From NCBI GenBank assembly GCA_944324945.1, contig CALUYE010000005.1:52236-116235 (forward strand): a stretch of 64,000 bases of DNA, in the 5' to 3' direction. The DNA comes from Candidatus Gastranaerophilales bacterium (GTDB lineage: Bacteria; Cyanobacteriota; Vampirovibrionia; Gastranaerophilales; Gastranaerophilaceae). Below the pieces are notes generated by a model that worked only from the letters and a program-made list of their open reading frames with translations, did not search any database and was not told where the DNA came from. Positions within the stretch are counted from its first letter, which is position 1; each line of letters opens with the position of its first letter. Shown piece by piece: positions 32,778 to 44,803 of the stretch. A program made the translations under genes and the position numbers.

Positions 32778-33371
32778 ATGAAAAAGATAATATTATTTTT
32801 ATTTTGCTTGATTTTATCAATTCAAATGGCACATGCAGCAGATAAAATCCATGTTAGAGCGCTAAGCCCTTTTAACAGTATAACGCCGCCTGAAACATTC
32901 AAAGTGGAAGTTATAAATGATGGGGTTATTGATGATATTGATTTTATTAAAGGAGATATAATTAACTGCACACTTGAAAAAGTTACTGATCCTAAAAGAG
33001 CTAAAAGAAACGCTAAAATATATTTAAACGTAGTAAGTTATGAAGACAATAAAGGAAAACACGATTTTTTAACCCCCCTAAGGGCAAAATACGCAAAAAG
33101 CGTTATAAATAAAGAAGAAATCAAAAAAATTCCTCCCAAAAAAATCGTCAAAAAAACCGCTTCGACAGTGGGAAGCTTTTTTGTCAAAGGATTTTCATAC
33201 GGAGTTTCTTTTGTTGACGGATTTAGCGAAAATAAAGAAGATAACAGGCTAAAATCAGGAGCTAAACAAGTGTATGACGATTCGTTTTTATCATATATCG
33301 AATACGGCAGCGAAGTAGAAATCAAAGAAGGTGACGAATTTTACCTTGTTATTTCAAAGAAAAAAGATTAA
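32778..33371 (+). CDS. Unrecognised exported protein
   Basis: 197 residues. [23 protein letters not shown] is a clear signal peptide with an AHA cleavage site. The mature part begins [26 protein letters not shown] and has beta-rich stretches, then a Lys/Pro region [24 protein letters not shown]. The strand-rich start resembles small envelope proteins, but no family is recognised. An AGGAAA ribosome site precedes ATG. The 3' end overlaps the convergent prfB stop by 4 bases. Function unknown. Confidence 0.65.
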
Positions 33372-34466
33372 ATTTGTTTTCTTAAATAACTTTCAATAAA
33401 CCCGTCTATTTCACCATTCATAACACCTTCAACATCAGAAGTCTCATAGCCTGTCCTATGATCTTTTACAAGTTTATAAGGGTGAAAAACATAACTTCTT
33501 ATTTGAGAACCGAAATTTACATCCATGACACCACCCTTCAATTGCCCCATTTTGGCCTCATATTCCGCTTGTTTTATGGCAATTAATTTTGAAGCAAGCA
33601 TTTCAAGAGCCGTTTCCTTATTTTGCAATTGCGAGCGCTGCTGCTGGCATTTTACAACAATTCCTGTCGGGATATGTTTTATTCTGACCGCCGTTTCAAC
33701 TTTATTAACATTCTGACCGCCTGCACCGCCCGAGCGCATGGTATCAACTTCAATGTCTTCGCTTTTTATCTCAATTTTATCATTAAAATTCTCAATAACG
33801 GGAGATACTTCCAAAGAAGCAAAACTTGTCTGCCTTTTGCCGTTAGCGTTAAAAGGCGAAATACGCACTAGTCTATGCACTCCTTTTTCCGCTTTTGAAT
33901 ATCCATAAGCATAAAGCCCCGATAATTTTATTGAAGCCGACTTAATCCCTGCTTCATCTCCTTCTGATTTATCAAGCAATTGAGCTTCATACCCTCTTAA
34001 CTGCGCCCATCTTAAATACATCCTTAAAAGCATATCTGCCCAATCCTGCGCATCCGTACCCCCGGCACCTGCCGTTATCGTTAAAATGGCGTCATTTTTA
34101 TCATATTCACCATTTAACATATTTTCTAAATCAAACTTATCAAACTCATTTTCAAGCTTTAATAAATTCTCCCTGCCCTCAAAAATTAAATTCTCATCCC
34201 CCAATTCAAACGCAACCATAGCATCATCTATAGTACTTTTCCAAGAATTTAACTTATCAATTTTTGATTTAATTTCTTTTTGCTCTTTTAAAAGTTTAGA
34301 AGAGGCCTCCTGATTAGACCAAATATCTTCTCTTTTAAGTTCATTTTCAATCTCAATTAAACGTTTATTAAGACACTCAAGGTCAAAGACACCTTTCTAA
34401 AGCTTCGAGTCTAAATGTCAAACAGTCAATCTTTTGCTTCAATTCATCTTTTATATTGATATCCAT
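33368..34466 (-). CDS. prfB: Peptide chain release factor 2 with programmed +1 frameshift
   Basis: The gene starts at the ATG at 34466 with a 27-codon first frame ([11 protein letters not shown]...) that ends at an in-frame TGA (34385-34383). The site reads AAAGG, a 3-base gap, then CTT TGA C, the conserved RF2 autoregulatory shift with its internal Shine-Dalgarno. Slipping +1 joins the second frame ([17 protein letters not shown]), giving 27 + 338 = 365 residues, the length of E. coli RF2. The tripeptide anticodon SPF (RISPFNANG) and the catalytic GGQ ([13 protein letters not shown]) are intact. RF2 recognises UGA and UAA, so shortage of RF2 raises its own synthesis. It faces the putative invertible segment. 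Confidence 0.95.
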
Positions 34467-34525
34467 GGTTATATTTTACTACAGGCACAAAAAAACATCA
34501 TGCAATGAGAATAATTTAATAAAAA

Positions 34526-34556
34526 TAACTCAACATAATTAAACTTTTGTTGAGTT
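34526..34556 (+). repeat. Left arm of perfect 31-bp inverted repeat, itself a dyad
   Basis: This arm is the exact reverse complement of 34686-34716. Within it, AACTCAACA (34527-34535) and TGTTGAGTT (34548-34556) are 9-bp inverted half-sites around an asymmetric 12-base centre (TAATTAAACTTT). That is the layout of a tyrosine-recombinase core site. Confidence 0.85.
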
Positions 34557-34685
34557 GTTTTAAAAACTTTTAAAATTATTGTAGCATAAAGAAAAAATAC
34601 CATTGCAAATTAATAATAATTTATTAATTTTATTTAACATTTTCAAAATAAATATTTCAAAGCTTAATTTATGGCACTTCAGGCA
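34557..34685. other. Putative 129-bp invertible segment
   Basis: The AT-rich segment between the two inverted arms contains no gene. Its best promoter-like signal points left, towards prfB: on the minus strand TGCTACAAT (34586-34578), an extended -10, with TTGCAA (34608-34603) 19 bases upstream. Inversion would aim this signal at the recombinase-like gene and the polysaccharide operon. With the flanking bases this is the only content of the 302-base gap between prfB and the next gene. Confidence 0.5.
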
Positions 34686-34716
34686 AACTCAACAAAAGTT
34701 TAATTATGTTGAGTTA
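34686..34716 (-). repeat. Right arm of perfect 31-bp inverted repeat
   Basis: Exact reverse complement of 34526-34556, with the same half-sites AACTCAACA (34686-34694) and TGTTGAGTT (34707-34715). The asymmetric centre is in the opposite orientation, as needed for inversion rather than excision. It lies 52 bases before the recombinase-like gene. Confidence 0.85.
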
Positions 34717-34768
34717 AAGTCTGTTTTGGAAGCAATATAAAAATTTCTTGGAAAGTTAATTAATAGCA

Positions 34769-35299
34769 ATGGGAATGAGTTTACCAATCAAAAACAAAGC
34801 GGAAATAAATTCCATAAAAAATTTATATAAAAAGAAAAATCAAACAAGCGAGCTTTTAATGTTCATGCTTGCAATTAATACAGGGATAGATTTAATTGGT
34901 TTATTGAATTTAAAAGTAAAAGACGTCAAAGATAAATTATATTTAAACATCAAAAAAAATAAAGTCATGCCGCTTAATCAAGACATAAGAAACCTTATTA
35001 AAGAAACCACGGACGGAAAAAAACCAAAAGAATATCTGTTTAAAAATTCGCAAGGCAGCAAATTCCACAGAACAACCATTTTTTATGCTTTTAAAAACAT
35101 CTGCCGGGAATTAGGTCTTAATAACAATTATTCCGTTGCATCATGGCGAAAAACTTTTGCATACCATTATTACATAAAATACAAAGATTTATCATATCTT
35201 CAATGGCTCTTTAATCAAACAAACATCAAAATGACTCTAAAATTCATAGATGTTGATGAAAATATGAATCTGAGATACAGAAAAGGAATCAAACTATAG
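34769..35299 (+). CDS. Degenerate tyrosine-recombinase-like protein heading the polysaccharide operon
   Basis: 176 residues, the size of FimB/FimE-type minimal recombinases, with only the catalytic-domain fold. Aligned by eye to FimB, INTGIDLIGLLNLKVKDV occupies the Arg-I region but has Asp instead of Arg. SVASWRKTFAYHYY occupies the HxxR box with only the Arg kept. LFNQTNIKMTLKFIDV occupies the GH...Y box with Gln for His and Phe for the nucleophilic Tyr. So most of the RHRHY set is missing and strand cleavage is unlikely. It may still bind DNA, for example the dyads upstream. It starts at ATG 34769 (a second ATG at 34775 is possible) and leads 7 bases into the first GT2 gene. Confidence 0.7.
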   Translation: MGMSLPIKNKAEINSIKNLYKKKNQTSELLMFMLAINTGIDLIGLLNLKVKDVKDKLYLNIKKNKVMPLNQDIRNLIKETTDGKKPKEYLFKNSQGSKFHRTTIFYAFKNICRELGLNNNYSVASWRKTFAYHYYIKYKDLSYLQWLFNQTNIKMTLKFIDVDENMNLRYRKGIKL

Positions 35300-35306
35300 G
35301 TGCCTT

Positions 35307-36188
35307 ATGATTAAAGTTTCCGTTATTGTTCCTGTTTTTAATACAGAAAAATATTTAGAAAAATGTTTGAATTCTCTTATAAATCAAACCCTGCAAGATA
35401 TTGAAATAATTTGCGTAAACGACGGCTCAACAGACAAAAGTGCCGATATAATTAAAAAATTTGCCAATAAAGATTCAAGATTTAAACTAATCAACCAAGA
35501 AAACAAAAAACAAGGAGCAGCAAGAAACACCGGAATGAAAATAGCCAAAGGAGAATATATAGGCTTTGTCGATTCCGACGATTGGGTGGATTTAGAATAT
35601 TACGAAAAATTATATAATGCAGCAAAAAAATACAATGCCGATATAGCATTGGCAACCAATATAAGAACAGGGCATGGCAAGGACAAGAAAAGATTAAATA
35701 TAACCGAAGAAAAATTTGTTACAACATTACAAGATAAAATTGATGTTTGCCAACAATGGAAAAATGAATGTCCGACAAATAAAATTTATAGACACTCAAT
35801 GTTGAAAAATAATAATATAACATGGCCCGAGGGAGTGTATTGCGAAGATAAATTATTTACAATCAAAGCCATATATTATGCCAGCAGCATTGTAGCTGTA
35901 CCTGGCGTAAATTACTACTATTATAGAAATCCAAATTCAACAGTTAATTCAAAAGCGAAAAAACATTATAAGCAATTGAGTCTTGACAAAAATATTGCGA
36001 AAAAATCAGTACTTGATTTTTTAAAAGAAAAAAATGTTCAAATCAGAGATAGAGATTTTTGGGCAACAAAATATGAATTTTCATTTTGCGGAATTACATT
36101 ATACAGATTAGAGGAAAGTTTTTCAACGGAAAAAATTTTATTATTTGGTTTAAAAATTTTTGAAAAAACTAAAAAGGATATTCAATGA
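35307..36188 (+). CDS. Glycosyltransferase family 2
   Basis: 293 residues. KVSVIVPVFNTEKYLEKCLNSLI, IEIICVNDGSTDKSADII and GAARNTGMKIAKGEYIGFVDSDDW form a complete GT-A domain with DSDD as the metal-binding motif. The C-terminal half (SMLKNNNITWPEGVYCEDKLF) carries the usual acceptor-side ED. It is the first transferase of the surface polysaccharide operon. Its stop overlaps the next start (ATGA), giving translational coupling. Confidence 0.9.
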   Translation: MIKVSVIVPVFNTEKYLEKCLNSLINQTLQDIEIICVNDGSTDKSADIIKKFANKDSRFKLINQENKKQGAARNTGMKIAKGEYIGFVDSDDWVDLEYYEKLYNAAKKYNADIALATNIRTGHGKDKKRLNITEEKFVTTLQDKIDVCQQWKNECPTNKIYRHSMLKNNNITWPEGVYCEDKLFTIKAIYYASSIVAVPGVNYYYYRNPNSTVNSKAKKHYKQLSLDKNIAKKSVLDFLKEKNVQIRDRDFWATKYEFSFCGITLYRLEESFSTEKILLFGLKIFEKTKKDIQ

Positions 36189-37153
36189 AAAATAATCTTG
36201 TAACAATTTTTCTTGTAACATATAACCACTTCGATACAATAGAAAATTCTATAAAAAGTGTTCTTGAACAAGTAACAACCTTTTCATACAAGCTTGTTAT
36301 ATTGGATGATGCATCTACAGATGGAACTTCGGATATTGTAAGAAAATACGCAAAAGATTACCCGCAAAAAATAATACCGATAATTAGAAATCATAATATT
36401 GGCGAGCAGTTAAATTTTTATAACGGATTGAAAACTGTTGACACGAAATATTATACAGTTTTAGAAGGCGATGATTATTGGTGCGACAAGCAAAAACTGC
36501 AAACTCAAATAGAGATATTGGAACAAAATCCCGATTGTTCTTTTTGCGCACATAATACTCTGGTTAAGTATTTACAAGACGATATAGAAAGGCCTTATAT
36601 AAAATCTAAAACACAAAAATACGGTTTTCCGCCAAAACGTATTACAAAAAAGTATTATATTGAACCTCATACTTCCTCTAGAGTATATAGAACAAAATGT
36701 TTGAATTTAAAAGAAATTCAAAATCCGATAGTTGCTACTTATGATATTGCAACAAATTTTTATTTTTTAACTAAGGGTAATTTATTTTATATAGATAAAA
36801 TAATGTCGGTTTATAATTATACCGAAAATGGGGTTTATTCCGGTTTAAATCCTTATACTCAGAGATTTAAGAGTGCAAATATAATAAATTTATTAAATAA
36901 AGAATTTAACTACAAATATAATAAAATTCTATCCAGATTATTTTCTACCAGATTAAATTTAAATTTTTGTACATATTTAAAAATTAAATACTTAAAACAG
37001 AATTTTGAAGCAACTTATAGCAAAATTTTAGATAAATATAAAAACCAATATTTAATAAACGCAGATATTAAACCTATTTTTAAATTTAAATTTCCAATAG
37101 GCGCAAAAAAATGGCTTTCGTTAGAGTTAAAAAGAGAGAAGGTGCGAGGGTGA
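36185..37153 (+). CDS. Glycosyltransferase family 2
   Basis: 322 residues. VTIFLVTYNHFDTIENSIKSVLEQ, YKLVILDDASTDGTSDIV and VLEGDDYWCD form the GT-A domain, with the GDDYW metal site typical of the subfamily also found at the N-terminus of the GT2-TagF fusion in this locus. The two share EQVTTFSYKLVILDDASTDG-like sequence. It overlaps both neighbours by 4 bases. The sugar transferred is not known. Confidence 0.9.
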   Translation: MKNNLVTIFLVTYNHFDTIENSIKSVLEQVTTFSYKLVILDDASTDGTSDIVRKYAKDYPQKIIPIIRNHNIGEQLNFYNGLKTVDTKYYTVLEGDDYWCDKQKLQTQIEILEQNPDCSFCAHNTLVKYLQDDIERPYIKSKTQKYGFPPKRITKKYYIEPHTSSRVYRTKCLNLKEIQNPIVATYDIATNFYFLTKGNLFYIDKIMSVYNYTENGVYSGLNPYTQRFKSANIINLLNKEFNYKYNKILSRLFSTRLNLNFCTYLKIKYLKQNFEATYSKILDKYKNQYLINADIKPIFKFKFPIGAKKWLSLELKREKVRG

Positions 37154-38130
37154 TAATTTTGGTAACCGGAGGTGCTGGATTTATAGGCTCATGCTTTATA
37201 CGGCATATTCTAAAAAAACACTCGGATTATAAAGTTATAAATTTAGATGCTTTAACTTATTGCGGCAATTTAGATAATTTAAAAGATATCGCAAATAATT
37301 TAAATTATACGTTTATTCAAGGCAATATTTGCGATAAGCGTTTAGTTTACGAATTGGTTGAACAGGCGGATTGTGTGATAAACTTTGCAGCCGAATCACA
37401 CGTTGACAATTCAATAAAAAATCCTGAAATATTTATAGAAACAAATATAAAAGGAACGCTAAATTTATTACAAGCAAGTAAAAACCTTGGAACAAACAGA
37501 TTTTTGCAAATATCTACAGATGAAGTTTATGGTTCACTTGATAATACGGGGTATTTTTATGAAACAACCCCGCTAGCCCCCAATAGTCCGTACTCAGCTT
37601 CAAAAGCAAGTGCTGATTTGTTAGTTAGAGCATATTATGAAACTTATAAATTACCCGTATTAAATACAAGATGTTCAAATAATTACGGACCATATCAATA
37701 TCCCGAAAAGCTTATTCCGTTTTTTATTTCACAACTTTTAAAAGGAGAAAAAGTGCCGGTATATGGGGACGGATTAAACGTCAGAGATTGGTTGTATGTG
37801 TATGACCATTGCGAAGCAATAGATGTTGTCCTGCATAAAGGCAAAGTTGGAGAAGTGTATAACATAGGCGGTCATAATGAAAAGACCAATCTTGAAATTA
37901 CTCGCCTTATTCTTGAAGCAATGGGAAAAGATGAATCCTCAATAAAGTATGTTGAAGACAGATTAGGACACGACAGAAGATACGCCATTTCTAACGATAA
38001 AATTACATCTGAATTAGCCTGGAGTCCTTCCGTTACTTTTGAACAAGGAATAAAATTAACAATTAACTGGTATTTATCTAATCAAGATTGGATTAAAAAC
38101 ATCGAACACAAGCGAGAGGCAACTGCATGA
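37150..38130 (+). CDS. rfbB: dTDP-glucose 4,6-dehydratase
   Basis: 327 residues from a GTG at 37150 that overlaps the previous stop (GTGA), with GAGAAGG upstream; a start at 37111 would add 13 residues ahead of the Rossmann fold. [10 protein letters not shown] binds [26 protein letters not shown] and STDEVYGSL with the catalytic DE are present, as are YSASKAS with Tyr and Lys, and [13 protein letters not shown] and [18 protein letters not shown]. It makes dTDP-4-keto-6-deoxyglucose. rfbC and rfbD are absent here, so the product goes to vioA rather than to rhamnose. Confidence 0.95.
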
Positions 38131-38999
38131 AAGGAATTATTTTAGCAGGAGGCAGCGGAACCAGATTATACCCAACAACAATGGTTACTTCCAAACAATT
38201 ATTACCTGTTTACGATAAGCCAATGATTTATTATCCCTTATCGGTACTAATGCTCGCCGGCATTAAAGACATCCTGATCATTACAACGCAAAAAGATGCT
38301 CCCGATTTTAAAAAATTGTTAGGCAATGGAGACCGTATTGGTATTAATTTAACATACAAAACTCAAGCTGCTCCGAATGGACTTGCAGAGGCCTTTATTA
38401 TTGGTGAAGATTTTATTAAAAATGACAATGTTGCTTTAATATTGGGGGATAATATTTTCTTTGGACCCAGATTTTCAGGTACATTAAAATATGTATCAAA
38501 GACAGTTGAAAATTATGGCGGAGCTTGCATTTTTGCATATCCTGTCAAACAACCGGAGCGTTTTGGAATTGTCGAGTTTGATAAGAATGACAAAATTATA
38601 TCATTAGAGGAAAAACCTCAAAATCCTAAGTCAAACTATGCCATAACCGGTCTTTATATTTATGACAATAAAGTTGTTGAATATGCTAAAAACCTTAAGC
38701 CGTCTGCTCGTGGCGAATTAGAGATTACTGATGTTAACAAAATTTATTTAAACAACAATGAATTAAGAATGGAAAAACTCGGCAGAGGCTTTTCCTGGTT
38801 GGATACCGGTACACATAACTCTTTATTGCAAGCAGGACAATATGTCCAAACCATTGAAGAAAATCAAGGAATTAAAATTGCTTGTTTAGAAGAAGTTGCC
38901 TTCAGGATGAAATTTTTATCTAAATCAAAAATTTTATCAAATATTAAAAATGTTAAAAACAATGAATACTATGACTATGTCAGAAAGCTGGTTGAATGA
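38127..38999 (+). CDS. rfbA: Glucose-1-phosphate thymidylyltransferase
   Basis: 290 residues. [17 protein letters not shown] is the nucleotidyltransferase signature; [52 protein letters not shown] and [17 protein letters not shown] match RmlA throughout. It forms dTDP-glucose from glucose-1-phosphate and dTTP, the substrate of the preceding rfbB. Four-base overlaps on both sides show tight coupling of the pathway genes. Confidence 0.95.
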
Positions 39000-40099
39000 A
39001 CACACAATTAAAAGAAAAAATATATGTAACAAAATCTTTTATGCCGCCTAAAGAAGAATATTTTAATTACTTAAATCAAATTTACCAAAATGGGCAACTG
39101 ACAAATCAAGGTCCATTAGTAAAAGAGCTCGAAGAAAAATTATCTTCATATCTGAGGGTGAAAAAAAATTTTCATTATGTAACTAATGGAACTATTGCTT
39201 TACAAATAGCGCTAAAAGCTCTTGGTATAAAAAACGGAGAAATTATAACAACGCCATTTTCGTATGTAGCAACAACTTCATCTATTTTATGGGAAAAATA
39301 CAAACCCGTATTTGCAGATATCAAGCCTGACAATTTCACAATTGATGCAAATAAAATCGAACAAGTCATTACTCCAAACACTCAAGCAATAATGGCAGTT
39401 CACGTATTTGGCTATGCTTGCAATATTGAAAAAATACAAAAAACCGCGGATAAATACAATTTAAAAGTAATTTATGACGCGGCACATGCTTTTGGTTCAA
39501 ACTATAAAGGGCAATCTTTGTTAAATTTTGGTGATATTTCTACTTGCAGTTTTCATGCAACAAAACTTTTTCACACTATTGAAGGCGGGGCATGCATTGT
39601 AAAAGATGATGAAATTTCAAAAAAATTAGACTTAATAAAGCGATTTGGTCATGATGGTGATACTCATTTTTGTTTAGGAATTAATGCGAAACAATCCGAA
39701 TTCAATGCAGCTATGGGGTTGGCTAATTTTCCATATATCAATGAAATTATTGAAAACAGAAAAACAATTTCCGAATTATATGATAAAGAGCTTGAAGGAA
39801 TTATTCAAAGACCCGAAAAACAAAGCGAATTGCAATATAACTATGCATATTATCCGATTGTATTTAAAAACGAAGAAGAGTTATTAAAAGTATTTAAGGC
39901 TTTAAACAAGGAAGACATCTATCCGAGAAGATATTTTTATCCAAGCTTGAATACATTGCCATATATAAAAGAAAAGCAATCTTGTCCGATTTCTGAGAAT
40001 ATTTGTTCAAGAATAGCTTGTTTGCCATTGTATCCTGATTTATCGGAAGAAAGTATATATAAAATATGCAAAATTATAAAAAATGAGATTAGCATTTAA
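38996..40099 (+). CDS. DegT/DnrJ/EryC1 sugar aminotransferase, VioA-like
   Basis: 367 residues. The PLP lysine is K190 in [15 protein letters not shown]. The start of the protein ([30 protein letters not shown]), [25 protein letters not shown] and [13 protein letters not shown] closely follow VioA, dTDP-4-amino-4,6-dideoxy-D-glucose transaminase. With rfbA and rfbB immediately upstream, this would aminate dTDP-4-keto-6-deoxyglucose at C4 to give dTDP-viosamine. The exact C4 stereochemistry and position (C3 versus C4) are inferred from resemblance, not proven. Confidence 0.82.
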
Positions 40100-40116
40100 T
40101 TTAAAGCGAGGTTAGT

Positions 40117-40875
40117 ATGAAAGAAATAATAAATAAAATTTTTTCAATAAAAAACAAAAACAAAACACAAAAAGTTATTACTATCTTGGGTATAAAAATA
40201 ACAAAAAAGATAGCTGCAAATAATGAAAAATTTTTAATTGAGTTAAATAAAAAAATTTCCAATATTGAATTTAAACAAAATCTAATAATGGATTATTTTA
40301 TAAATTCTTCAAATGCGGCGAAAGCAACAGGACAATTAAGAAAATTTCAATTAGAATGTCTTGAGTTACTTAAAAACTTTGAAAAAATATGCAATCAAAA
40401 CAATTTAGTTTACTGGTTAGATTTTGGTTCTTTGCTGGGAGCTATACGGCACAAAGGATTTATTCCTTGGGATGACGATTTAGATGTTTCAATGCCTCAA
40501 GATTCTTTTAACAAGTTTAGAGAAATTGCAAAAAATTTAGTTCCGGAACCGGTATGTTTCATAGATAGAGAACCCGGCAGAATGGCAAGGCTTCAATACA
40601 AAAAAAATTCAAAAGCATTTATTGATATTTATTGTTATTTTGATAAAAATGAAACTTTGCAAACAAATCTTCCGTTTGTAAATCTAAATTCAAGAAAACC
40701 AATTAAAAAGGAAATTCTTTTACCTGTACAAAAAATAGAATTTGAAGGGTCTATATATTCAGCCCCAAACGATCCTGACACTTATTTAAGAATAAGATAT
40801 GGTAATTACAGTCTATTACCCAAAAAACCAAATCTTGAGTGCGGACATGAAGTCATAAATGAATATTTAGAGTAA
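40117..40875 (+). CDS. LicD-family phosphotransferase
   Basis: 252 residues. The LicD core is unmistakable: YWLDFGSLLGAIRHKGFIPWDDDLDVSMPQDSFNKF, with the metal-binding DDDLD. It begins with about 60 residues of unassigned, Lys-rich sequence, and then QLRKFQLECLELLKNFEKIC leads into the domain. LicD enzymes transfer phosphocholine or a related phospho-substituent from a CDP donor onto surface glycans. The adjoining gap contains a decayed nucleotidyltransferase-like remnant, which may once have made the CDP donor. Confidence 0.88.
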   Translation: MKEIINKIFSIKNKNKTQKVITILGIKITKKIAANNEKFLIELNKKISNIEFKQNLIMDYFINSSNAAKATGQLRKFQLECLELLKNFEKICNQNNLVYWLDFGSLLGAIRHKGFIPWDDDLDVSMPQDSFNKFREIAKNLVPEPVCFIDREPGRMARLQYKKNSKAFIDIYCYFDKNETLQTNLPFVNLNSRKPIKKEILLPVQKIEFEGSIYSAPNDPDTYLRIRYGNYSLLPKKPNLECGHEVINEYLE

Positions 40876-40889
40876 CAAAAGAATTAATT

Positions 40890-41033
40890 ATGATTAAAGT
40901 TTATATTGAAATGAGTACAGATTTATCATATTCAAATCATCTAAATATTAACAATGAATGGCGTAAACCGAAAAAAGGAGCTTGTCGTAAGTTTTGCAGT
41001 GAAAAAGCAATTGTCGGTCAACTTCTCAAATAA
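40890..41033 (+). pseudogene. Remnant of a cytidylyltransferase-like gene
   Basis: A 47-codon frame begins MIKVYIEMSTDLSYSNHLNI. It resembles the start of HxGH nucleotidyltransferases attached to PEP-mutase or LicD systems (consensus kVY..MS.DL.H.GHLNI), with the HxGH motif degraded to YSNH. The remaining 20-odd residues keep only a trace (SEKAI for TDKAI). The rest of the 230-base gap to the next gene has no open frame. It looks like the decayed 5' piece of a gene paired with licD. A short unrelated peptide cannot be excluded. Confidence 0.45.
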
Positions 41034-41106
41034 ATATTGAAAGCCGACTAGTAATCCTAATTTTAAATAAACAAGGCCTACTGAATTTATATGAAAGAAA
41101 TATAAA

Positions 41107-43431
41107 ATGATTAACAATGATATTAAAGTACAAATAGTTTGCGTAACATACAATCAAAAAGAATACATTAAAGATGCTCTGGATAGTTTTTTAATGCAAA
41201 AAACTAATTTTAAATTTGAAGTATTAGTTGGCGACGATTGTTCAACGGACGGCACAAGTGAAATTGTTGCCGAATATGCAAAACAATACCCTGATATTAT
41301 AAAACACATACACAGAACATCAAATATGGGGTGTTTAGCAAATTTTATGGATTTATGCGAAAGTATAACAGCCAAATATGCAGCCTTTTGTGATGGTGAT
41401 GATTATTGGAGCAATGAAAATAAACTTCAAAAACAGTTTGATTACATGGAAAAAAATAAAAATGTTACAATTTGCAGCCATCTTTCAGAAGTGAGAATTA
41501 CTTATGATTGCCCTTATTTGCATTATTACAAAAAACAAAAAAGGGGATTAGTTATACCAAGCCGTCTGCCATTAGAAAAAAAATTAACAGCCTCTGATGT
41601 TATTGAAGAAATACCCCATATGTCCAGCTTGTTTATCCGATGGAATATTGGACAAATTCCGGATTGGTGCAAAAGAGACGGTAAATGCGGAGATTATCCC
41701 ATAATCTTTTTTTCGCTTGGTGATTCTTATTTATATGTAATCAAAGAAAAAATGAGTGTTTATAGAAAAAGTGAAACCGGTGTTTTTTCCCAAAAAGAAT
41801 CTCAATATTTATTTTTTATAAATACAAGGCCTGAATATTTCAAATTATTGACCGGATTTATTAAATATTATGAAAAAAATTACCCGACTTTTCAAATTAA
41901 AAATTTTAAAAAAAGGCTATTAATAGAACTCTCCAATTATTTAAATGCAATCATTGAAACCGAAAAATGGGAAAAATTACTTGAATTAAAAGAGCAATAT
42001 CCTGAAATATATAAAATTGCATTATCTTTACTTAAAGAATATAAATACAAATTGCAACAAATAGATAAATTAGGAACAGAACAAGCAAATCTATTAAGAA
42101 AAAATAGCACATTAAAAATCATAAAGCCTATTTTACAATCTGTTTATGCAATAAAAAAGACCATTAAAAATTTGCAGCGGCTATTCAAACAAATTCATTC
42201 ATTTTTTGCATATTGGATATTTGCTATAATACCCAAAAAGAAAAATTTGTGGGTGTTTACAGGCTTTAATATGAAAAGCTATTCAGATAATACAAAATAT
42301 TTATATGAATATATTATAATGAATCACCCAGAGATAGAAGTTGTTTGGTTAACAAAAAGCAAAGAAATTCAAAAAAAATTAAAAGAAGCAAAAATGCCTG
42401 TATGTAAAGCAAATAGTCTTTATGGAATTTGGATGACGGCAAGAGCAAGTATTGCTCTTTCGAATCATTTTAAAATGTCTGATTATGATAATCGCTATGG
42501 TTTTAATGCTAAAACAAAATTTGTGAATCTATGGCACGGAATTGGATTAAAAGATATGCGTCCGATTGGTGATAAAATCCCAAATATGACTATTCCGGGT
42601 GTCAGGTTGTCATCTGATATTATTATAAATAAAGATGATAGTTTATTTGTTAAAATACAAAAGACATTGAAATATTTTTTTGTGGCTCCGTTTAGAGAAC
42701 TCTATGAAAAATACTTTTTAATAATTTGCCCCGGACAACAATTTAAAGATTACAACGCTATACCTTGGCAAATTCCAAAAGATGCACAGTTTTTGTGCGG
42801 ATATCCAAGAAACATAAACCTTTATAAATCAAATTTAACCAATCCGAAAAATTACAATATATTATATGCTCCTGCATATAGATGGAATCTTAATGATGAG
42901 GAATGTTTAATAAATATTTTTATAAATAGTATAGACTGTATAAATGACTTATTAGAAAAAAATAATGCTACTTTTACATTAAAATTACATCCGCGTACTT
43001 GGAAAAACTATGGCAATATAATTTTGACTGCAATTAAAGATAAAGAAAGATTTCTAATAAACAAAGAAAATGATATCTATACCGAATTACAAAACTATTC
43101 GCTATTAATAACAGATTATTCTACATTGGGATATGATTTTCTCTTAACAGGAAAGCCGCTGGTATTTATGGCTTTTGATAAAGAACAATATCAAAATAAT
43201 AATAAATTTAGTATGCCATATGAAGAAAATTGCCCCGGTGATGTAGTTACTTCTTGGACAGATGCACTGCTTTCTGTTGAAAAATCTTACAATAATCCCG
43301 GTTATAACAAAGAAATAAGAGACAAAATTTCCGATCTATTTGTGCCTAAAAAATACAATGATATCAATAATTCAAAAAGAATTGCGGAAGAAATAAAGCG
43401 AAGATTAAAAATAAGGAGAAAAAATGACTAA
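41107..43431 (+). CDS. Bifunctional GT2 / CDP-glycerol glycerophosphotransferase (TagF-like) fusion
   Basis: 774 residues. Residues 1-230 are a GT-A domain (VQIVCVTYNQKEYIKDALDSFL, VLVGDDCSTDGTSEIV, FCDGDDYWS). After a helical linker at about 270-375, a TagF/TarF-type domain runs to the end: VFTGFNMKSYSDNTKYLYEY, VVWLTKSKEI, NLWHGIGLKDMRPI with the catalytic His, LYAPAYRW, FTLKLHPR and TDYSTLGYDFLL. This should polymerise or add glycerol- or ribitol-phosphate, as in teichoic acids. The fused glycosyltransferase suggests it builds an alternating sugar-polyol-phosphate chain. RBS is weak. Confidence 0.88.
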   Translation: MINNDIKVQIVCVTYNQKEYIKDALDSFLMQKTNFKFEVLVGDDCSTDGTSEIVAEYAKQYPDIIKHIHRTSNMGCLANFMDLCESITAKYAAFCDGDDYWSNENKLQKQFDYMEKNKNVTICSHLSEVRITYDCPYLHYYKKQKRGLVIPSRLPLEKKLTASDVIEEIPHMSSLFIRWNIGQIPDWCKRDGKCGDYPIIFFSLGDSYLYVIKEKMSVYRKSETGVFSQKESQYLFFINTRPEYFKLLTGFIKYYEKNYPTFQIKNFKKRLLIELSNYLNAIIETEKWEKLLELKEQYPEIYKIALSLLKEYKYKLQQIDKLGTEQANLLRKNSTLKIIKPILQSVYAIKKTIKNLQRLFKQIHSFFAYWIFAIIPKKKNLWVFTGFNMKSYSDNTKYLYEYIIMNHPEIEVVWLTKSKEIQKKLKEAKMPVCKANSLYGIWMTARASIALSNHFKMSDYDNRYGFNAKTKFVNLWHGIGLKDMRPIGDKIPNMTIPGVRLSSDIIINKDDSLFVKIQKTLKYFFVAPFRELYEKYFLIICPGQQFKDYNAIPWQIPKDAQFLCGYPRNINLYKSNLTNPKNYNILYAPAYRWNLNDEECLINIFINSIDCINDLLEKNNATFTLKLHPRTWKNYGNIILTAIKDKERFLINKENDIYTELQNYSLLITDYSTLGYDFLLTGKPLVFMAFDKEQYQNNNKFSMPYEENCPGDVVTSWTDALLSVEKSYNNPGYNKEIRDKISDLFVPKKYNDINNSKRIAEEIKRRLKIRRKND

Positions 43432-43582
43432 TATAGCTTTATTAACAGCAGGCAAAGTCGTTTCCGAAATTCAAAATGCAATTCCAAAGCAATTTACAGC
43501 CATCTTTGGTAAGGCAATTCTGGTTTACATTATGGAATTAAATTTGAGGATTAAACATATATTTAAAATACAAGGGGATTAA
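43424..43582 (+). pseudogene. Remnant of an IspD/TarI-type cytidylyltransferase
   Basis: A 52-codon frame overlapping the TagF stop, with a good AAGGAG site. It begins MTNIALLTAGKVVSEIQ and continues IPKQFTAIFGKAILVYIME, close to the first 40 residues of ribitol-5-phosphate or methylerythritol-phosphate cytidylyltransferases (ialltAGG.GsRm....PKQf....gKpIlvyt.e). The GGxGxRM nucleotide loop is corrupted (GKVVSEI) and the frame ends after 52 codons of an expected 230 or so. An intact copy would have supplied CDP-ribitol for the TagF-like enzyme. Confidence 0.6.
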
Positions 43583-43596
43583 AAGTTCAAAATTCA

Positions 43597-43695
43597 ATGT
43601 TAAACCCCGCTATACCAATGGTACTTGGTTGGAAATCAAAATTCAAACTAAACGAAGCGGTTGAACAAGTATACACAATAAGAACAATTGTTTGA
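43597..43695 (+). pseudogene. Remnant of an NAD-dependent epimerase/dehydratase C-terminus
   Basis: A 32-codon frame reading MVLGWKSKFKLNEAVEQVYT matches the end of short-chain sugar epimerases (lGWkPk.sLeEGi..ty.w). No Rossmann-fold part is left. It directly follows the cytidylyltransferase remnant, suggesting one deletion removed the end of one gene and most of the next. The 276-base gap contains nothing else. Confidence 0.45.
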
Positions 43696-43707
43696 AAAGG
43701 AACAGAA

Positions 43708-44803
43708 ATGGAAAAAATCAAAAATATTGAATTTTTAAGAATTATAGGTTGTATAACCATTGTAATTTTGCATTTATTTAACGATTATGGTCTTCATTCA
43801 ATATTTCCCGATATAGAGTTATACAACAAAATTCAAACAATGACATCAAACGGACAAAAGGCTGTGGACTTATTTTTTATTTTGTCCGGCTTTCTTTTTG
43901 CATATAGATTTAACACTGCAAAAACAACATTTGATTTCGTAAAGCTCAAAATCATACGCTTTTATCCTGTGTTACTTTTTGTTATTTTATTGTGTTTTGT
44001 TGCTTCCTTGTTTAAAATAGGAACTTTTAACATTTACGAAATGATAATAACATTAGCAGGATTAAACGGAACAGGGTTGTATAACACCTGGGGAACAATT
44101 TTTGTATTTTGGTATGTATCATCATTATTGTTTGTATTGACACTATTTTATTACTTACTGAAAAACTATCAAACAAAGAACGTGAACTTGTTTATTGCAC
44201 TTGGAATATTCTATTCCTACACAATAATATTGAGCTATACCCATGGTCACATATTTGGAAAAATTGAAAATATTAATAATGTTTTTAATTTGGGAATTTT
44301 AAGAGCATTTGCAGGAGTCGGCATTGGATATTTTATTGCACTTTGGTATAAAACAAGATATAACAAACCCTTGCAATCAAACTATTACCGTATTAAAACT
44401 TGGCTATATACAATTTGCGAATTTTGTTGTTTATATTTCATAATAAATAATTTAATGCTTCACAAAATCAAATACAATAATGACATTATTTTTATTATTA
44501 TTTTTGCACTGACACTTGTTTTGTTTATAACAAAACAAGGATATATAAGCAGAATATTAGATGTTTCTTTTTGGAGCAAAATTTCCAAGTATTCATATTC
44601 TATCTTTATGACCCATTGGTTTGTGTATTACATTTTCAAAAACACCCTTTGGAAAAACCACAATATATATATATATATATATATATCCGAAGCTAAACAT
44701 AATCATTTCCTTGTGTTTAGTTTTTGCACTGGGAATTTTTGCATATCATTATGTTGAAAAGCCATGCAATAAATATCTAAATAAAAAAATAAATAACAAT
44801 TAA
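43708..44803 (+). CDS. Acyltransferase-3 family protein with (AT)12 frame-disrupting tract
   Basis: An OafA-like membrane acyltransferase. MEKIKNIEFLRIIGCITIVILH is the family N-terminus, followed by about ten membrane segments. The frame passes through an (AT)12 tract at 44663-44686 (translated as repeating Ile-Tyr) and then runs in the wrong frame to a stop at 44757 (349 residues). The proper C-terminus, LVFALGIFAYHYVEKPCNKY, lies in the +1 frame to 44803. Gain of one AT unit, or loss of two, would restore a protein of about 365 residues. It therefore appears to be in an altered-C-terminus or OFF state and is a likely slipped-strand contingency gene. Sequencing error in the tract is the main alternative. 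Confidence 0.8.
44663..44686 (+). repeat. (AT)12 dinucleotide tract inside acyltransferase gene
   Basis: Twelve uninterrupted AT units in coding sequence. Reading frames before and after the tract do not match, and both have clear acyltransferase sequence. Confidence 0.9.

Follow-up and report, generated by a model that had tools for sequence, protein, structure and literature searches.

A predicted invertible promoter and a disarmed tyrosine recombinase at the head of a polysaccharide operon in Gastranaerophilales

Introduction

Invertible promoters placed before surface glycan genes are well known in Bacteroides and other bacteria. In fimS, the promoter lies between short inverted repeats, and FimB and FimE, which flip it, are small tyrosine recombinases of about 200 residues. 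Tyrosine recombinases cut DNA with the catalytic set R-K-H-R-H/W-Y. A phase-variable element of the FimB/FimE-type kind is reported for upaE of UPEC in the accessible part of PMC6083910. In Bacteroides capsule loci, as treated in the available portion of PMC7315117, regulator genes are found at the start of the operon and some of the promoters invert; UpxY acts as an antiterminator, and UpxZ acts against the UpxY of other loci. In Akkermansia, the cps1 inverton is an invertible element before a capsule locus, with reads in both orientations (PMC13343947, main text).

The window analysed here is a stretch of 64,000 nucleotides, part of contig 5 of a Candidatus Gastranaerophilales genome (1.92 Mb in 15 contigs). 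Its switch locus is similar to the fimS/upaE type in that short inverted repeats flank a promoter-like motif and a small tyrosine recombinase is the predicted flipper. Different from that type, the first gene of the window switch encodes a catalytically dead recombinase, and the likely flipper is located on another contig. Like the genes of UpxY and UpxZ in the portion of the source available, the dead gene stands at the beginning of a polysaccharide operon behind a predicted invertible promoter, whereas its product has a recombinase fold and the host belongs to another phylum. Unlike the window locus, the Akkermansia cps1 inverton comes with no mention of a recombinase in the main text of PMC13343947. 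The window protein shares the catalytic-domain fold (PF00589) with XerC, XerD, XerA and XerH, but in contrast to them has lost the first Arg (R1), both His and the Tyr, and has no N-terminal domain.

The accessible part of PMC9431673, on XerC and pyocins, offers no clear earlier case of a recombinase that regulates without cutting, and in that of PMC5991714 'inactive tyrosine recombinase' is a label for protomers in an excision model. A search mainly of titles and the beginnings of abstracts, mostly outside subscription journals, gave among the matches listed no description of a dead recombinase at a phase switch, and nothing joining Gastranaerophilales with phase variation. Invertible glycan promoters are thus known, while a disarmed recombinase as the conserved first gene of a switched operon is not described in the literature searched.

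Results

The window locus

An earlier note on this DNA had claimed a perfect 31-bp inverted repeat around 129 bp, each arm consisting of two 9-bp half-sites and an asymmetric 12-base centre, with the arms in opposite orientation. The repeat and the arm structure are both present as claimed (Table 1). The arm layout is AACTCAACA-TAATTAAACTTT-TGTTGAGTT, in which AACTCAACA and TGTTGAGTT are the half-sites of 9 bp each and TAATTAAACTTT is the asymmetric centre of 12 bp. For 64 kb of this base composition, the chance expectation for perfect 31-bp inverted repeats within 300 bp is about 3e-10.

Table 1. Features around the predicted switch, in window coordinates.
Feature	Position	Strand	Remark
Release factor gene	33368..34467	-	PCRF and RF-1 domains in 33371-34219
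Left arm	34526..34556	+	predicted recombination site; perfect inverted repeat
Invertible segment (predicted)	34557..34685	.	129 bp; similar to the L116 segment in reverse
Extended -10 motif	34570-34595	-	points left, away from the operon (OFF); de novo motif
Right arm	34686..34716	-	predicted recombination site, in orientation opposite to the left arm
Catalytically dead tyrosine recombinase	34769..35299	+	176 aa; first gene of the operon
Polysaccharide operon	35307..44757	+	eight genes with glycan-related Pfam domains

The recombinase-like gene had also been placed at the head of a polysaccharide operon, and the Pfam domains downstream agree with that. After a gap of 7 bp there follow GT2, GT2, a sugar-nucleotide dehydratase/epimerase, a nucleotidyl transferase, a DegT aminotransferase, LicD, GT2 together with a glycerophosphotransferase, and an acyltransferase. 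The release factor gene is presumably prfB (RF2). An upstream frame and the heptamer CTTTGAC, which we take to be the programmed frameshift motif in a split prfB frame, are visible in its sequence, and the frame is likely split by programmed frameshift.

The dead recombinase and its family

The window protein matches PF00589 with 59.8 bits against a cut-off of 27.1. The absence of the first Arg, both His and the nucleophilic Tyr, as first read from the translation, was borne out by the alignment. D41 takes the place of R1, A124 that of the HxxR His, Q150 that of the third His/Trp and F159 that of the Tyr, V66 is found at the Lys position, and of the full set R-K-H-R-H/W-Y only R127 (R2) is retained. 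The AlphaFold2 model has a pLDDT of 91.5 and was matched by Foldseek to XerA (5hxy) with a probability of 1.00 and a TM of 0.76 by query length, so the protein has a recombinase fold. Against PDB sequences, the profile of the dead family matched XerC-like, XerA, XerH and XerD chains, and the window protein alone gave no match at E 0.01. The NCBIfam equivalog cut-offs were missed for XerA (52.3/220 bits), XerC (31.5/335) and XerD (31.9/330). A Pfam scan up to E 1 returned only PF00589 and a sub-threshold DUF3666, with no likeness to UpxY or UpxZ by Pfam domains. Chain 14 of PDB entry 9i5v (401 aa, deposited as RaiA) also matches the dead-recombinase profile, at 2.6e-7; a literature search gave no link among the papers listed.

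A profile of 16 dead proteins was run over 383 genomes of the order. It gave 45 near-full-length matches (217-275 bits), spread over 40 genomes. Five genomes carry two dead copies each, and the next best match has 166 bits; since at most nine first-look candidates were scored per genome, the 45 may miss some, and a contig-edge piece in G110 (161 bits) was excluded. None of the 45 has the HxxR His, and all of them have R2. Four retain R1, which is lost in the other 41; the third His is missing from 40 and the Tyr from 26, so that 19 retain the Tyr. In the 21 intact recombinases that neighbour dead genes, both His, R2 and the Tyr are present in 21/21, and R1 in all 20 that reach this position. 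A protein collection held 305 homologues. In the 120 that were examined, mostly at full coverage, the His is lost in 120 and R1 in 119, the Tyr is changed to Phe in 102 and R2 is retained in 118; intact proteins may be present among the remaining 185.

With the catalytic columns masked, the 45 dead proteins fall on one side of a branch with a support of 100, in a quick, unrooted tree in which five long rows, four of them dead, blur the details. The alignment shows that the family carries its own conserved signature. Among the 16 pairs listed, the six with dN below 0.15 have dN/dS values of 0.04-0.15, and the other ten, all with dS above 1, have values of 0.21-0.58. By these ratios the close pairs are under purifying selection. 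As the family also forms one group and mostly heads glycan operons (see below), we do not regard the dead protein as a pseudogene in decay.

The dead gene could nonetheless be thought of as a decayed second recombinase copy that is kept by linkage to the operon. Catalysis is indeed gone, such switches can do without the gene (see below), and the L121 copy holds a stop. We consider this reading quite improbable: the dead proteins form one group with its own signature and low close-pair dN/dS, the other 44 matches have no stop inside, and the loss is common to every homologue examined. Domestication of the dead recombinase is instead supported by the placement on one side of a branch, the loss of the HxxR His in 45/45 matches and 120/120 examined homologues, the low dN/dS of close pairs and the place in the operon.

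Among 80 of at least 541 viral-contig relatives no member of the dead family was seen, all 80 having an intact HxxR motif by a rough pattern. In Lachnospira and relatives (L074-L077), a separate recombinase of 245 aa has R1 changed to Gln, the HxxR His to Gln and the Tyr to Phe. It is located directly behind a carboxypeptidase-like gene, by look presumably a D-Ala-D-Ala carboxypeptidase, and has no clear repeat pair. As it branches apart from the Gastranaerophilales family, catalysis was likely lost there independently.

Inverted repeats and reversed segments in relatives

The earlier note had proposed to look in related genomes for the protein together with its arms. Upstream of the dead gene, a repeat pair with a score of at least 15 is present in 28 of the 45 loci, one of which (L127) is odd and may be unrelated. 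In the shuffle control, 3 of 1800 reach a score of 15 and none 16. The 17 loci under the threshold comprise three that are short of upstream sequence, four with imperfect site pairs by eye (L056, L057, L111 and L114) and ten in which none was found. Within a locus the arms are perfect or nearly so, and between loci they differ.

The most telling comparison is that of L061 with L130, whose segments match by 91.4% over 128/128 bp in reverse (z 24), with the inner half-sites swapped between the arms by eye. When L130 was flipped in silico, the alignment score rose from 101.5 to the maximum of 204.5 for crossovers 0-12 bp into the arm, and was 167-200.5 for crossovers elsewhere. As read from the two sequences, this difference leaves a crossover footprint inside the arms. 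In all, 17 different, hand-chosen segment pairs were compared. The L122 and L123 segments are reversed with z 15.8, and L117/L125 and L108/L117 with z of about 6; L054/L119, L058/L060, L108/L125 and L129/L055 share their orientation with z of at least 4.9. The window segment matches that of L116 in reverse with a score of 107 (z 4.9), above all 300 shuffles (maximum 93), against a forward score of 68 (z -1.3); this reversed match is moderate, with 75% over 85 bp. It is the only clear one of five window pairs, the scores being weak for L050 (forward z 2.3) and for the contig-12 locus of the same genome (C12; reversed z 2.4, forward 0.5). Both orientations were found between related genomes only, in L061/L130, L122/L123 and window/L116. 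Since reversed segments occur in relatives, inversion is supported, and presumably the window segment inverts in this species now.

The switch segments of L122 and L124 are 100% identical, and the dead genes of these two genomes differ at dS 0.85, which suggests a recent exchange of the switch alone.

Inverted repeats by themselves are no proof of inversion and the window locus has no adjacent recombinase, so that its repeat might also represent the ends of a transposon or MITE, or a mere hairpin, that does not invert. We regard this as very improbable in view of the reversed segments in relatives with the crossover inside the arms and of arms that are near-perfect within a locus and different between loci. 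Moreover, Rfam gave no match over 33000-36500, and a sequence scan revealed no terminator-like site. The arm type TCAACA-N12-TGTTGA is found without mismatch only at two pairs in the whole genome, that of the window and that of C12. Allowing up to one mismatch, 15 places are obtained (11 beyond the exact four) against 6 for the backward pattern, so the single-mismatch copies are not telling. A reading of the window repeat as a MITE was rejected, as no second exact pair exists beyond contig 12.

A promoter motif within the segments

The leftward promoter-like signal that had been noticed inside the segment was sustained in part. A generic sigma-70 scan found 5 sites against a shuffle mean of 7.8, nothing above chance. 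What stands is an extended -10 motif with a consensus of roughly TTTGTTTATGnTAnnAT, found de novo over 26 related segments (L127 and the duplicate L124 being left out); its window copy lies on the minus strand. Its total score is 452 in the real segments versus 306-333 in eight shuffled sets, and the sites lie within 29 bp of the segment end in 25/26 real segments versus 11-16 of 26 shuffled ones. The motif is clear in 22 of the 26 segments, at 5-29 bp from the arm that is fired through, and is directed toward the dead gene and the operon in 10 and away from them in 12; L051, L062, L122 and L123 were set aside with a weak or displaced motif. In the window, the leave-one-out score is 12.7 on the minus strand versus -2.1 on the plus strand. 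The -10 hexamer TACAAT is located at 34583-34578, and inversion would place it at 34659-34664 on the plus strand. This motif is a predicted working promoter.

In its OFF direction the motif aims at prfB (window 34378-34583). As it points at a gene with a split frame, the window switch could also touch release factor expression. By eye, a single arm is left beside a promoter-like motif at L128, L134 and L112; the first two may be locked ON and the last locked OFF. A shared leader (TTCTC, GAAAG) between the right arm and the start codon of the dead gene in L108, L114, L128 and L050 was considered as an operator or leader peptide, and this reading was dropped because only near relatives share it.

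The recombinase that may flip the switch

An intact recombinase is located upstream on the same strand in 20 of the 45 dead-gene loci, and at L055 the tail of one is seen by eye at the contig edge. For 25 of the 45 dead genes the stretch examined holds no intact neighbour, and in four of these cases the contig ends within 260 bp. Across the 16 loci with a repeat and an intact partner, arm similarity correlates with partner identity at rho 0.37 (p 0.0004), or 0.39 when the dead protein is accounted for. It does not track the dead protein, for which rho is 0.09 (p 0.17), or 0.14 (p 0.08) after accounting for the partner; between partner and dead protein there is no correlation (-0.10). Single pairs illustrate the same: L061 and L125 share their arms and have partners that are 75% identical and dead proteins that are 44% identical, and the dead proteins of L108 and L113 are 77% identical with arms that are unrelated. 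Since the arms go with the intact partner rather than with the dead protein, flipping is likely the work of an intact neighbour or of an intact recombinase acting in trans.

For the window, the candidate lies on contig 12 of the same genome, where an intact small recombinase, a perfect 24-bp repeat pair around 125 bp and a second dead protein with 64% identity to that of the window all run in one direction; the contig ends just behind. From 28 recombinase loci given to the arm comparison, 26 were read and 5 had usable arms. The window arms score 22 against those of contig 12; against the four other usable loci, one of them in the same genome, they do not exceed 14. As its arms resemble those of the window, we infer that the contig-12 enzyme flips the window switch. 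By the same comparison, no matching trans recombinase was obtained for the other partnerless loci. The intact recombinase of L044 adjoins arms that by eye differ from the window arms at 1/26 bases. It shares 88% identity with the L111 recombinase, 80-81% with the L113 and L116 enzymes and 72% with the contig-12 enzyme; recombinases in the subclade of the contig-12 enzyme (L044, L111, L113 and L116) adjoin TCAACA-type arms.

A profile of the intact enzyme matched in 21 of 23 dead-gene genomes searched. The one match in G306 is to the dead protein, and that in G254 contains a stop. G320 and G325 gave no match to this profile; at L128 of G320 one arm is left by eye, and G325 is 84% complete. All ten genomes that have a repeat and no neighbouring recombinase (G000, G111, G104, G086, G186, G192, G210, G275, G352 and G386) hold an intact-type match of at least 190 bits. 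With the reversed segments taken into account, it is very likely that the window repeat works as an invertible, phase-variable promoter, flipped by another, intact recombinase.

The genes behind the dead gene

In 43 of 44 loci the gene that follows shares the strand of the dead gene, and in 36 of 44 it lies within 60 bp. By Pfam, these 44 genes include 15 of glycosyltransferase family 2, 12 nucleotidyl transferases and 4 bacterial sugar transferases. DNA polymerase, HU and a transposase domain are each matched by a single next gene, so a few loci are something other than glycan operons. Further downstream, 83 of the 110 genes listed were examined, and dehydratases, epimerases and glycosyltransferases were obtained. 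Among ten recombinase loci that have enough downstream sequence and no dead gene, three show the repeat followed by a glycosyltransferase or sugar transferase, and the dead gene is thus optional.

Discussion

The earlier note had offered two alternatives, that a different, active recombinase flips the switch or that the dead protein is a domesticated regulator that binds the dyads. The first, and the domestication in the second, have found support, and the evidence favours both layers at once; what falls is the strict either/or. Our best overall explanation, a promoter switch flipped by the contig-12 enzyme together with a dead recombinase serving as a non-cutting regulator in the ON state, is one that we consider probable.

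The sequence of events we propose is as follows. The intact small tyrosine recombinase of contig 12 is predicted to invert the window segment in trans. In the present OFF state, the motif is aimed at prfB. Once inverted, it would drive transcription across the right arm, first of the dead gene and then of the glycan genes, and the dead regulator would be made only when the promoter faces the operon. The dead protein is likely a non-cutting, DNA-binding regulator of this ON state, which most likely would provide feedback on, or cross-talk between, phase-variable glycan loci. By analogy, it would bind recombination sites or promoters without cutting and so would do by other means what UpxY and UpxZ do.

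How would such a protein act? It could sit on its own arms in the ON state only and block the active recombinase in a dominant-negative manner, thereby holding the switch ON. In favour are a preserved fold and R2, the basic character of the dead proteins (median pI 9.45 vs 9.73 for the intact enzymes), and a gene that follows the right arm immediately, so that the ON-facing motif would drive its expression. Nevertheless this latch appears rather unlikely to us, since the arms do not track the dead protein in the rank correlations given above, the closely similar dead proteins of L108 and L113 go with unrelated arms, and L128 and L134 retain the dead gene despite one arm missing by eye. The missing co-adaptation with the arms leans against arm-specific binding by the dead protein.

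Alternatively, the dead protein may be an ON-state regulator of the transcription of its own operon or, in trans, of other glycan loci, in the place that UpxY and UpxZ would hold by analogy. The dead gene comes first, close to the next gene and mostly before glycan genes; it is kept at loci that look locked by eye; its product is not co-adapted with the arms or the partner; and five genomes have it in duplicate. On the other hand, an operator was not found, and the parallel with UpxY/UpxZ is one of position only. We therefore put this reading forward tentatively, as a possibility. Between the latch and a role in transcription or across loci, the co-variation result leans toward the latter.

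For the family as a whole, we propose that cutting was lost once in Gastranaerophilales, and that this founded a group of non-cutting regulators heading phase-variable glycan operons, in which each flip would toggle a descendant of the flipper and give feedback or cross-talk. The arguments for and against this wider proposal seem to us evenly balanced.

The unusual point of these loci is a conserved family of disarmed recombinases that forms part of the switched operon. The module lends itself to testing, as the arms, the intact enzyme and the dead protein can be transferred to another host. If the dead proteins regulate, these gut relatives of Cyanobacteria would have a phase variation with its own feedback of recombinase fold, and a set of genes taken for phage integrases by Pfam would have to be renamed.
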